This document shows, piece after piece, positions 8,620 to 52,489 of a stretch of DNA of 64,000 nt (position 1 is its first letter; every line of letters begins with the position of its first letter). Under the pieces are notes generated by a model that did not search any database, was not told where the DNA came from, and worked only from the letters and a program-made list of their open reading frames with translations. The DNA is taken from assembly GCF_030463535.1 (NCBI RefSeq), contig NC_132878.1, forward strand, positions 98,152,540 to 98,216,539, written 5' to 3'. Made by a program: the position numbers and the translations under genes. This stretch comes from Salminus brasiliensis. Taxonomy: Eukaryota > Chordata > Actinopteri > Characiformes > Bryconidae.

Positions 8620-9790
8620 CTGAATAAGAGGAGACAGAAAAGGTCGATTGTATAAATGATTTGGGGTCAGGAAAGTGGTCATCAACCATGACTCCTTTCA
8701 CATTCTTAGTTTTGCTGAGGAACAGTTTGATCTGATCAAAGGAGTAAGCAGCACAAGAACTCGGCTGACTTCCTAACTCTGACATGTCACTGTCAGACTC
8801 CTCCAAAGTACCAGAATCATCTCCAAGTGCTTCTCTGTGTTTTTCACCCCTGGGAGCTCCCTGTGTCCTCCCAGTTCTTTTCCCAGTCCTAGTCCTCTTC
8901 AGTTTTCTTTTTCCCGGCACCCTAAAGAGCGTTTATTCAGCTACGGCATCAGTATCCATACCCTCTCCCTCCACCAAACTAGCAGCAGCAGCTTCCTCAC
9001 CCTGACCAGCAGCAGCCACAGTTTCAGTAGGACCAGGGTTCAGAACTCTCCTGACTAACGGTGCTGTCCTCACCAACAGACTCAGCTACTGCACCCCCAC
9101 CTCAGCCTGCACCATCACCTCAGCCTGCACCTATCTAAAACAGTAGTCTCCTCTATGGCATCAGCCCTAGAAGCTAACATGCCCTCTCCCGCCCCACCAG
9201 ACTCAACCTCTCCTCTAGACCCCCAAGACAAGACAAACATATTTACCATTTGTGATGGACACAGATAGAATTTGGCTTTTATCCCATCCGTGCAGTGAAC
9301 ACACACACACACACACACACACAAATACACACCGGTGAAACACACACAGTGGACCGTGAGCACACACACACACAGAGCGGCGGGTAGCCATTGCTGCAGC
9401 GACAGGGGAGCAGAGAGGGTGAAGGGCCTTGCTAAAGGGCCCAACAGTGGCAGCTTGCCAAGCCTGGGTATCAAACCCACAACCTTGTCATAAAACACTT
9501 TTTTAAATGAATAAAATTCAGGTGTAAAACAGACTCACCATCCAACACCGAGCACCCCGCCTCCCCACAGCACCACACCACTTTAAAAGTCTCCAGATCA
9601 GACACACACTTATAATAATTAAACTCCATCAAAACCCTGGACTTTACCAGTCTAGAGAGGATCTGAACAGCGTCACAGTCAGCTTACCGCTCCACATGGT
9701 TCTTGTGGCTGATGTACACTGCCCGTTCAGCCTGACCAAGAGTAACATTAATCAGCTGGCACCAGGGGCAGCCATGCAATGAGTTAACGG
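8620..9790 (-). mobile_element. L1-Tx1-type LINE fragment, copy A (ORF1)
   Basis: Minus-strand frames give QAERAVYISHKN...SRLVKSRVLMEFNYYK (about 9770-9580) and, further on, an acidic/basic stretch ending in IKLFLSKTKNVKG and DHFPDPKSFIQ (8920-8650). These recur in copies at 26.2-27.7 and 58.9-59.2 kb. I assign it to the fish L1-Tx1 lineage because copy C continues into an L1-type endonuclease. A SINE interrupts it and stops are present. It lies antisense in the intron of NLR copy 1, as its counterparts do in copies 2 and 3. Confidence 0.65.
9241..9495 (-). mobile_element. tRNA-type SINE, 5'-truncated
   Basis: Contains GGGCCCAACAGTGGCAGCTTG and a degraded box B (reverse of TATCAAACCCACAAC), followed by CA-rich spacers. 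The same body is seen at 26621-26877, 45555-45720 and 51455-51737. It is nested in L1-Tx1 copy A at the same point as in copy B. Confidence 0.7.
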
Positions 9791-9795
9791 GACTC

Positions 9796-10660
9796 AGTGA
9801 GAGTGGACACAGTAAATACTTCCAGAAAGTGTCATTTATTAACACTATAAAAATGTACCCTCCACCACTCCATCACAGTAATGAAGCTTAAAGCAGCTTC
9901 ATCCTATTGGGTGTGTCTGTTTGTTTCATTGTAGCCTACATTGTCTTTATCCACCTAGACTACATAAACCTGCCCCAGACAAAGTAGCTCAGCCTTGGCC
10001 TAGCCTACTACATACCCCACGAACAGTAATAGTATAATAATGAAATTAGAAAGCTGCCGCTGACTGACTGGTTTTGTTGGTGAATGGTGGTTTTAAAAAG
10101 TGTTCTCACATTTAAGACTATTTAGTTCAGGATGGAAGACATAAAAGTACTGACCTAGGCTTCTTTCCTCATCCAGTCTGTGTCTTCTACACAGTGTCTT
10201 ATAAATAGCCGCTAGTGGTGAGGACGTTATTCCCTCATTTCACCTGCGTTTACGATACAAACTAACTCGGCCACAGAACATCAGCCAAAATGATTTTATT
10301 ACTTTTTATCATTTGATCAGATTCACCAAGGAGTAAATCTGCTTTAGCTCCTCATTACATAGCCCAAGTGTCCTGAAAGCAGTCCAGCTTACCGCAGGTT
10401 CTACCACATGTTCCTGTCCACTGTGAATGCCACTGCCAGAACCACCATCGCCACCAGGTTGAACTTCTGCAGACTTCGAAGGGTCAGGAAGGCTCTCATA
10501 CAGCCCAGTAGCACTGACCCAGAGCACCTCAAGTACATCCTGACCAAAACCGACCAAATTATTTTTATTATTATTTATTATTTTAATAGCAGTAACAGTA
10601 GTTTTCATTCTGTTACTCTCAACAACTGTAATGTACAATTTATTAAATGAAGCCAATTAA
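9796..10660 (+). other. Intron of NLR copy 1, no gene
   Basis: Largely matches the reverse complement of 25800-26270 (copy 2) and 58510-58850 (copy 3). No exon or extra repeat was recognised. Confidence 0.6.
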
Positions 10661-10667
10661 ACTGAAC

Positions 10668-10705
10668 TGAGAGAGAGAGAGAGAGAGAGATACTGTCCTG
10701 ATCTG

Positions 10706-10748
<43 letters not shown>

Positions 10749-10804
10749 TTAGAGTGAAACATGGAGGGACGATCAGAATCAAACCTGGACTAAAGAAATG
10801 TAAG

Positions 10805-10858
<54 letters not shown>

Positions 10859-10860
10859 AT
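10668..10860 (+). repeat. GA, TG and CA microsatellites around the 47-bp NLR exon
   Basis: A GA tract (10670-10690) and TG tracts (10704-10747) precede the exon and a CA tract (10806-10855) follows it. The first TG tract ends in the acceptor itself (TGTTTAG). Such tracts flank the same exon in every copy. Confidence 0.9.
10753..10799 (+). pseudogene. NLR copy 1, 47-bp linker exon
   Basis: Lies between TTTAG and GTAAGT and encodes VKHGGTIRIKPGLKK, the short hinge that joins LRRs to the PRY domain in fish NLR-B30.2 genes. The same 47-bp exon is found at 25655-25701 and 22943-22989. Confidence 0.8.
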
Positions 10861-10901
10861 CAGTGCAGTGTTCCTCCTCTAATGTCTCTTCTTGTGTTCA
10901 A

Positions 10902-11464
10902 ACGGCTGTGATCTCACACTGGACCCAAACACAGCACACACACGTCTCTCTCTGAGTGAGGGGAACAGAAAGGTGGTGTGTGGAGAGAAGCTGCAGTCGT
11001 ATCCTGATCATCCAGAGAGGTTTGATGTGTATCAGCAGGTGATGAGTAGAGAGAGTCTGACTGGACGCTGTTACTGGGAGGCTGAGTGGAGCGGGAAGAG
11101 AGTTGTTGTAGCTCTGACTTATAAAACCATCAGCAGGAAAGGAAGGAGATCAGACTGCTGGTTTGGAGGGAATAAAGAGTCCTGGAGTCCGATCTGCTCT
11201 GATGAAGGTTTCTCTGTTTATCACAATAATAACAGAACTGATCTCCCTCCTCCTCCCTCCAGCTGTAGGAGAGTAGGAGTGTATGTGGACTGTCCGGCCG
11301 GCACTCTGTCCTTCTACAGCGTCTCCTCTGATACACACACACTCACAAACTCACACACACTCACACACTTACACACACTCAACACCACATTCACTCAACC
11401 CCTCTATGCAGGGATTGAGTTTTATCAGTATGGCTCCTCAGTGAGTCTGTGTAAGATAGAATAA
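10902..11464 (+). pseudogene. NLR copy 1, PRY/SPRY (B30.2) terminal exon
   Basis: Encodes about 186 residues: PRY blocks CDLTLDPNTAHTRLSLSEGN and RFDVYQQVMSRE, then SPRY blocks GRCYWEAEWSG, RVGVYVDCPAGTLSFYSV and TQPLYAGIEF, ending in SLCKIE and TAA. The frame is open along its full length. The sequence before the exon reads TTCAA where copy 2 has TTCAG, so the acceptor is lost. A histidine/threonine loop after SFYSVSSD is encoded by CACACTCACA repeats. The B30.2 domain is a protein-recognition module; here it is probably not expressed in the normal spliced form. Confidence 0.8.
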
Positions 11465-11469
11465 CCCTG

Positions 11470-11480
11470 TGTGTGTGTGT

Positions 11481-11516
<36 letters not shown>
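11470..11516 (+). repeat. TG microsatellite after the SPRY exon
   Basis: Starts 6 bp after the stop codon. The equivalent tract at 58443-58478 marks the edge of the exon deletion in copy 3. Confidence 0.9.
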
Positions 11517-21344: not shown

Positions 21345-22440
<1,096 letters not shown>

Positions 22441-24994: not shown

Positions 24995-42014
<17,020 letters not shown>

Positions 42015-45554: not shown

Positions 45555-45720
45555 TAACTAAGCCCCTTGAGCAAGGCCCTTTACCCTCTCTGTTCCACAG
45601 GCACTGGAGTTGGCTGCTCACCACTCTGTGTGTGTGTGTGTGCTCACTGCCCCTAGTTCACTAGTGTGTGTGTGTGTGTGTTTACTACATCAGATGGATC
45701 AAATTCATAGGAAACATTTG
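45555..45720 (+). mobile_element. SINE fragment
   Basis: GAGCAAGGCCCTTTACCCTC and TG tracts match the SINE body at 51455-51737 in reverse. The tRNA head is missing. Confidence 0.6.
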
Positions 45721-46004
45721 GCTGTACGTAATACAGTGACAGATACCTTTACCATTGTTACTGATAATTAAATGGCTGTAAATTACTCTATTATTAGGCA
45801 CTAACTGCAGTAATTATTCAGTTGTCAGATTTTAACATTCAGTCTATTTACCTCGTAACCAACCTTCTAAGGAAAGCCCTAAAATGCTACAACCTTTTTA
45901 AAAGTGCATGCAAAATACACCCCCAAGGCTGGTTCATAAAACATTCAAATAACATTACTGTTTATCTCATCATGGCTGGAAGAAAGCATCTTGCTCTATT
46001 TTAT

Positions 46005-51370: not shown

Positions 51371-51454
51371 TGAGGTTTTCTGAATTTTGGGAACTACTAA
51401 GAGGCAGCACCCTGAGATCTAAATAATCTTAATGGTTCATAATCAGTAAAAAGG

Positions 51455-51737
51455 TGCACGTATTCGTCACTGTACAGTGTGGACTGTACAGTGAAATGTG
51501 TCCTCCGCATTTAACCCATCTGGTAGTGAACACACTCACACACACACACGTGTTAGGGGCAGTGAGTACACACACACACCCAGAGCGGTGGGCAGCCAAC
51601 TCCAGCGCCCGGGGAGCAGAGAGGGTAAAGGGCCTTGCTCAAGGGCCCAACAGTGGCAGCTTGCCGAGCCCGGGAATCGAACCCACAACCCTGTTATCGA
51701 TATCCCGGCGCTCTAACCGCTGAGCCACCACTGCCCA
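51455..51737 (-). mobile_element. tRNA-derived SINE, full head
   Basis: The minus strand begins GGGCAGTGGTGGCTCAGCGG (box A TGGCTCAGCGGTTAGAGC at 51727-51710), then box B GGTTCGATTCCCG (51684-51672), and the body GGGCCCTTGAGCAAGGCCC with TG tracts, ending in a 3' part GCGGAGGACACATTTCACTG. The internal RNA polymerase III promoter boxes are well preserved. It is the only copy in the window with a complete head, and it directly follows a U1 sequence on the same strand, with 6-8 bp between. Confidence 0.8.
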
Positions 51738-51743
51738 TAATAT

Positions 51744-51907
51744 CAGGGGAGAGCGCGAACGCAGTCCCCCACTACCAGAAATTATGCAGTCGAGATTCCC
51801 ACATTTGGGGAATTCGCAGGGGTCAGCACAACTGGAGTGCAATGGTTGAGCCTCACCCTGGGTGAACCACCTTCTTGATCATGGTATCTCCCCTGCCAGG
51901 TAAGTAT
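51744..51907 (-). ncRNA. U1 snRNA, full-length 164-nt copy (probable retropseudogene)
   Basis: Read on the minus strand it starts ATACTTACCTGGCAGGGGAG, the U1 5' end that pairs with 5' splice sites, and ends GCGCTCTCCCCTG, exactly 164 nt as in vertebrate U1. Stem-loop II keeps the U1A-binding loop ATTGCACTCC; stem-loop IV keeps GGGGGACTGCGTTCGCGC. Differences from the usual sequence: GATCAAGAAGG in the U1-70K loop (usually GATCACGAAGG) and AATTTCTGG at the Sm site (usually AATTTGTGG). Upstream there is L2 LINE sequence rather than a snRNA promoter (no PSE seen), and downstream a SINE. Function is therefore unlikely; identity as U1 is secure. Confidence 0.85.
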
Positions 51908-52489
51908 GAAAGATCTCACAAGTACTCAGGAGCGAGGCCATGTAGGACTTTGTAGGTCAGTAGTAGAATTTTATAATTACTACTGGATTTAACTGGAAGC
52001 AGTGATGCTGATAGAACTGGACTGATATGGTTAGATGTTCTAGGTTTAGTAAGAACCCTGGCTGCAGCATTGCAGCATAGTTGAAGTGTATTGAGGTTCC
52101 TGCTGGAACAACGTGACAGTAGCGCATTACAGTAATCTAGTCTTGAGGTTATACTAGCTTTTCTGCATCCTGTAGAAAAAAGAAATTGCATAGCTTGCCA
52201 ATGTTCCGAAGATGTGGAAAAGCTGTGCTAGTAATATTAGCTATATGTCGGTTAAATTACTCGCATATGACGGCATATGATGGCAAAATCCTTAGCTGCT
52301 GGACCAGGAATATTGAAAATATCAAGTTTGTCTGATAGTTAATTTTCTGTGGCTTTTGGCCACCTAAAATTAGAACCTCTGTTTTGTCACTGTTTAGGTG
52401 AAGGAAGGTATGTGACATCCAGCATTTTACATCCTTTACACAGTCCTCAATTTTCTTTAATCTAGATTTATCACAATGTCATTGTTAAC

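Follow-up and report, generated by a model that had tools for sequence, protein, structure and literature searches.

Organisation of the U1-SINE locus

The window, by which we mean the whole 64-kb stretch of DNA that was analysed, carries on its minus strand a full-length copy of the U1 snRNA, which is followed after a short linker by a tRNA-derived SINE, and this unit lies within an L2 LINE. The features are given below with the basis of each assignment in brackets.

51744..51907, minus strand: U1 snRNA copy, full length, 164 nt (Rfam RF00003, 164.7 bits; comparison with 30 U1 loci)
51737..51743, minus strand: junction linker ATATTAT, 7 nt, between U1 and the SINE (sequence)
51450..51736, minus strand: tRNA-derived SINE, full length, 3' end ..GTGCACCTTT (sequence, repeat comparison)
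51717..51727, minus strand: A-box-like stretch TGGCTCAGCGG in the SINE head (sequence motif)
51673..51683, minus strand: B-box-like stretch GGTTCGATTCC in the SINE head (sequence motif)
51912..52472, minus strand: L2 LINE, 5' side of the insertion (77.8% to 34571-33993, 586 columns, E 4.6e-133)
51380..51449, minus strand: L2 LINE, 3' side of the insertion (51443-51380 is 87.7% to 33983-33919, E 6e-17)
33919..34571, minus strand: uninterrupted paralogous L2 copy, used as empty-site reference (alignment to the L2 flanks)
45561-45755, plus strand: partial SINE copy
9491-9249, minus strand: partial SINE copy
26624-26846, plus strand: partial SINE copy

In the Rfam search, the U1 copy covers model positions 1-166 of 166 (E 1.2e-42; gathering score 69.5) and is the only match in the 64 kb at the gathering threshold. 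It aligns to the U1 genes of the genome without an indel over 164 nt and differs from the commonest gene type at a single base (75 G>A), and its free energy gave no distinguishing signal (z -1.3). The L2 match extends to at most 4 bases from the first base of U1, so that there is no snRNA gene promoter upstream, as a functional U1 gene would have, and the 5' flank common to the U1 genes in tandem arrays is quite different.

The SINE starts with GGGCAGTGG at 51736, and its head contains two stretches which we take to be A-box-like and B-box-like promoter motifs. It is a genuine repeat, with three further partial copies in the window and many across the genome, several of which end in TTTACC-like tails. 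The tRNA-related head with both boxes, the interspersed copies and the repetitive tail are those of a tRNA-derived SINE, although a tRNA model scored 19 bits on 51734-51662, under the gathering score of 29, and ARAGORN called no tRNA on the SINE. The border between the SINE tail (CTTTTTAC) and L2 is ambiguous to the base in alignments of the joined flanks. Over 287 nt the SINE matches a solo copy at C1:64860801 with 100% identity. With a U1 part one base off the commonest gene and a SINE identical to a solo copy, the window copy appears to be young, and it may be polymorphic. The preliminary description of this DNA had proposed a full-length U1, a SINE following soon after on the same strand and an L2 continuing on both sides, all of which is borne out here.

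U1-SINE composites across the genome

We searched the window's own assembly (1.066 Gb, 103 contigs). The first genome search returned 15 places, the window among them, that match across both U1 and SINE, and in total we found 35 loci, including the window copy, at which a complete or partial U1 is fused, in the same orientation, to the 5' side of the SINE (L001-L015, L035, L059, L074, L081, L084-L087, L095-L103, L108, L109 and L111). These composites are spread over many contigs. Their number is a lower bound, as it comes from exact or best-scored candidates only, and a loose pattern met 216 places, about 100 of which were among the matches listed. L098 and L099 were counted despite U1 parts of only 78% and 71% identity. 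The exact pattern CTCCCCTG-N0..30-GGGCAGTGGTGG was found at 21 places, 18 with U1 and 3 without, and its reversed control at none; the three places without U1 (L104-L106) were dropped.

Most searches required U1 to precede the SINE on the same strand, and only a census of an exact U1 21-mer, which is biased to young copies, was neutral with respect to orientation. This 21-mer occurs at 232 places genome-wide, with 219 on one strand. The 100 places listed first comprise 81 on contig C9, which holds U1 tandem arrays, and 19 on contigs C1-C8. Among these 19 listed matches, 16 are joined to the SINE, two to a LINE-like 3' end (L107 and L110) and one, L112, to neither, and thus joins to retroelements account for 18 of the 19 sampled U1 retrocopies. 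U1 lies 5' of its partner and on the same strand in 16/16 SINE-joined and 2/2 LINE-like copies. The arrays on C9 were seen at 11.05-11.12 Mb and 14.06-14.20 Mb at least, with a spacing of approximately 5.3 kb and 1.8 kb. Pattern scans for the SINE, L2 or U1 letters in a viral contig set and a genome contig set gave no match, and a literature text search for the SINE letters found none.

Junctions, U1 variants and SINE trees

The U1 part starts at +1 in 22 of the 35 composites and is aligned to base 164 in 27, with other ends at 158 (four loci), 153 (one) and 149 (one); in L011 and L103 the alignment is shorter owing to internal decay. L059 and L085 have 5'-truncated U1 heads that begin at bases 102 and 67, respectively, as expected from incomplete cDNAs. 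The 27 composites with a complete U1 3' end have 25 distinct linkers. The linker ATATTAT is unique to the window copy, and the one repeated linker, ATTTTTTA, occurs in L004, L095 and L096, which have no U1 mutations in common.

Apart from gene-type variants and CpG decay, the U1 parts have little in common. Thirty fetched U1 loci fall into two types, with 19 and 10 members, plus one single locus; one of the 19 is the composite L035, whose U1 is identical to the gene. Heads of the composites carry 62A, as gene type I does, or 77C, as type II does, or neither, and this indicates that U1 was taken repeatedly from genes. Changes common among 23 U1 parts are the gene-type G62A and CpG transitions; six bases are common to L074 and L084, and five other non-CpG changes each occur in two of the 23 copies. 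The gene 3' flank continues in the linkers of L005 (9 nt), L059 (7 nt) and L102 (6 nt). As an observation apart, L074 and L084 (and also L103) have the changes A19T, T22C, A33C and G34A in common, and those at 44/45 in part, and their linkers begin with TT or TC instead of AT; these heads probably derive from another U1 gene class.

The SINE parts were compared in two trees with solo SINEs, a set of 38 rows representing 37 places (L067 and L090 coincide), of which eight were chosen by similarity to the window SINE and the rest by a pattern requiring GCTCT upstream. Tree 1, with 53 rows (20 composite and 33 solo, after exclusion of 3 composite and 5 solo short rows), shows 15 changes between the composite and solo labels compared to 14.9 for shuffled labels, at least 7 of them forced by starred branches, and a single composite clade is rejected (p-AU 2e-54). 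In tree 2, with 69 rows (35 composite and 34 solo; 4 solos excluded), there are 19 changes compared to 21.6 when shuffled, and one clade is again rejected (p-AU 1e-5); this tree is poorly resolved, with 1 of 57 branches starred, which forces 4 changes, and a bootstrap that had not settled. The junctions thus differ and the SINE parts are scattered among the solo subfamilies, as expected of independent events; copies of one fusion, which would have the same junction and form one clade, are not what we see. From this it follows that such fusions arose again and again, each from the U1 and SINE transcripts present at the time. The preliminary description had held that many copies with one junction would define a new composite SINE and a single copy a chimera. 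Many copies exist, but not with the same junction, and the composites thus represent repeated independent fusions rather than one accident or one family that propagates.

Direct repeats around the composites

In a permutation test, the 5' and 3' flanks of each copy were paired with each other or at random among copies, and shared letters were counted. For the flanks of the whole composite, 16 copies gave 83 shared letters compared to 71.4 expected from random pairing (P 0.0022). With 11 more copies, that is 27 of the 35 composites (in the other 8 the 3' end or the 5' flank could not be placed), there were 132 compared to 121.7 and the P value weakened to 0.026. Around the SINE alone (P 0.87 with 16 copies and 0.80 with 27) and around U1 alone (P 0.73 and 0.68), no repeat signal was seen. 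Examples of direct repeats are TTACAGACTT in L013 (by eye), ATCAATA in L003 and GGCCAT in L005, and many are just 3-5 bp long. The insertion in L013 also has a second copy of the initial U1 bases (ATACTTAC) at its 5' end.

Across copies, the repeats thus flank the whole composite and not its parts, which for the window copy taken by itself is not decisive. Its direct repeat, CTTT, is 4 bp long and was found by eye, and a repeat at least as long occurs in 55% of random pairs; the 6-letter match credited to it by the permutation is an L2 self-match and not a target duplication. Of the target-site duplication looked for at the borders of the window copy, only this short repeat was recovered. Two findings that the preliminary description had named as speaking against a chimera, repeats around one part alone and an snRNA promoter upstream of U1, did not turn up: the permutations gave P values of 0.68-0.87, and L2 occupies the upstream position. 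Its reading as a chimera made by template switching gains support from the composite loci, their differing junctions and the repeats around the whole unit, whereas a new snRNA-tRNA composite SINE family does not fit.

Other RNAs and other partners

A U6 covariance search gave 13 matches, with 48 of 94,448 first-look candidates scored. Eleven places were fetched from these, and five are joined to the SINE: L115/L124 (one place), L116, L119, L120 and L123. In L123, the U6 3' part is joined through a T run to a 5'-truncated SINE. A U6-SINE pattern built on a presumed U6 3' end had 0 matches, but this genome does not contain the 3' end in question; the control thus failed and the zero is void. The U6 3' end in this genome reads GCGTCCAATCTTTT. 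U1 seems to be the commoner partner, in searches for U1 and U6 that were of unequal depth.

Besides L107 and L110, a third join of U1 to a LINE-like part, L093, was found on C27. All three have the same short 3' end (GGGACTAATAAAGGA...ATCTTATC), which resembles a LINE tail; the label LINE-like reflects appearance alone.

Discussion

We conclude, with a probability of roughly 0.9, that U1 and the SINE were inserted together in one step, and that this happened recurrently in this genome. The two were likely joined by template switching rather than by prior RNA ligation, with a reverse transcriptase presumably supplied by a LINE. To this end, the SINE RNA would be reverse-transcribed from its 3' tail at a nick, in the window in L2. 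Having copied the SINE RNA up to its 5' end, the enzyme would jump to a U1 RNA, either a precursor or a tailed form, and copy it from the 3' end to the +1 nucleotide or stop earlier. In the last step, the joined U1-SINE cDNA would be integrated as one insertion. Such events recurred many times independently in this genome, mostly with U1 but in some cases with U6, and a LINE-like 3' end served as a starting part as well.

Instead, ligation could have come first, linking a U1 RNA or one of its decay products to the SINE RNA at its 5' end; reverse transcription of the hybrid would then lead to insertion in one step. This predicts identical anatomy, that is sense orientation, variable linkers and repeats around the unit. 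The ligation route is tied to the chemistry of the U6 3' end, yet U1 seems to be the commoner partner here. In addition, the structure of L123 fits a polymerase jumping inside the template and argues against ligation. Although RNA ligation is one of the proposed routes for U6/LINE-1 chimeras in the available text of the source (PMC13174262), we consider it unlikely for the composites described here.

Two independent, nested insertions into L2, of U1 and then of the SINE 7 bp downstream or in the reverse order, were favoured on the window alone. Read together, the linker and the initial base of the SINE give ATATTATG, which is also the sequence of the empty site in the paralogous L2, and ATTATG is met again directly after the window SINE. 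The empty site holds 191 of 127,988 7-mers of the window (0.15%), 58 of 127,986 8-mers (0.045%) and 22 of 3,664 7-mers made of A and T only (0.6%), and none of 20000 random 8-mers reached the alignment score of the nested model. However, this reading was overturned by the 15 places in the genome that match across U1 and SINE: the same order and spacing at 35 loci are not those of coincident pairs, and the permutations found no repeat around either part alone. Taking out the whole unit likewise leaves L2 flanks that meet without a gap, and the two models have equal scores of 87. Nested insertions are thus very improbable, and the match between linker and empty site is best taken as coincidence. 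Least credible of all is a composite SINE family like SINEU, in which one U1-SINE fusion became a propagating master, for despite at least 35 copies, many with similar linkers of A plus a T run and three with ATTTTTTA, a single clade is rejected in both trees, linkers and U1 end points vary, and heads with 62A, 77C or neither point to repeated capture from genes.

Given one-step insertion with template switching, each junction preserves the point at which a captured U1 RNA ended. The loci could therefore serve to date variants of the U1 genes and reveal which forms of U1 met the retrotransposition machinery. In this respect, the base composition of the linkers deserves attention. In 20 linkers from the first 23 composites, entered by hand, 71% of the bases are T (143/201), compared to 35% (135/390) in the 10 nt that precede solo SINEs. 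Among 27 linkers, 21 start with AT and 20 contain TTTT, with 69% T overall, and T-rich linkers also precede the LINE-like partner in L107 and L110. In L087, the U1 part ends at 158 and the bases after it, ATTTTTT, are not gene-encoded there; alternatively, this end may reflect a later 6-base deletion. One might tentatively speculate that the SINE reverse transcriptase prefers U1 precursors that are 3'-extended or 3'-trimmed and carry untemplated oligo(U) tails, that is TUT-DIS3L2 substrates. If true, the junctions would be a fossil record of U1 3' ends in RNA surveillance. DIS3L2 of human cells binds snRNAs in both trimmed and 3'-extended form. Untemplated U tails are present on the extended molecules, whereas the trimmed ones mostly have none, as seen in clones of U12 and U5, according to the available part of that study (PMC5069555); the latter point speaks against this reading. 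The 3' flanks of the U1 genes themselves start with ATTTT, ATTT or ATCT, and the T run of the linkers is therefore partly templated; as an alternative to oligo(U) tails, the run could also be added by the reverse transcriptase.

SINEs with snRNA-derived heads, named SINEU, were reportedly described by Kojima in 2015. SINEU are propagating families, and while they likewise have snRNA-related sequence at the SINE 5' end, the composites described here do not form one clade and have no common junction.

For the other systems we draw on the accessible parts of the respective reports. Doucet et al. (2015) described U6 chimeras with L2-mobilised SINEs, platypus Mon-1 and lizard AnolisSINE2, made by template switching, in a vertebrate comparison that spanned marsupial to amphibian (PMC4476161). 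As in our genome, an snRNA head sits on the 3' part of a SINE or LINE, the events are single and recurrent, direct repeats are short (1-9 bp in 72.5% of the platypus chimeras), and stand-alone processed copies are few or absent with a LINE of the stringent type (PMC4476161). In contrast, platypus U6 parts are almost all 5'-truncated whereas U1 here mostly starts from +1, and U1 seems to be the commoner partner here whereas in human no template-switch U1/L1 chimera is given among 33 U1 sequences in the text at hand (PMC4476161). Fusions of U1-U6 to LINE-1 have also been reported, and in these mammalian RNA/LINE-1 chimeras the snRNA is likewise mostly full length, on the same strand and 5' of the retroelement, and they are likewise independent events, usually without propagation (PMC13174262). 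The donor in mammals is L1 (PMC13174262). In our genome its place is taken by a tRNA-derived SINE, the tail of which is (TTTACC)n-like, and the captured RNA is mainly U1. A tRNA-related head is also found in the HAmo SINE of cyprinid fish, the tail of which is LINE-dependent and has the repeat TAAATG, different from the tail of the SINE described here (PMC2873951).

The kind of event is thus already known from the U6/SINE chimeras and the U1-U6 fusions to LINE-1, as far as these sources extend (PMC4476161, PMC13174262). Apparently new is U1 as the partner of a tRNA-SINE, in dozens of independent events and in a teleost; a search of open-licence literature, outside which most subscription papers lie, found no report of U1-SINE chimeras in fish. 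For annotation, this means that an snRNA adjoining a SINE is not necessarily a new SINE family.

Other features of the window

The window U1 contains GACCCCTGCGAAT, the complement of the Dada-U1 target, which is given for ray-finned fish in the accessible part of the source (PMC8869645). Together with the L2, SINE and Tc1-like content, this points to a teleost genome. Two pairs of inverted duplications are present, 8645-10162 with 27487-25935 (95%) and 10558-11515 with 25906-24944 (92%), and the first pair encloses two of the SINE copies (9.4 and 26.7 kb). By eye, the open reading frames at 37709-39463 (minus strand), 10892-11464 (plus strand) and 24995-25564 (minus strand) look like portions of fish NLR genes (NACHT and SPRY/B30.2), and that at 21784-22251 (minus strand) looks like a Tc1-type transposase.
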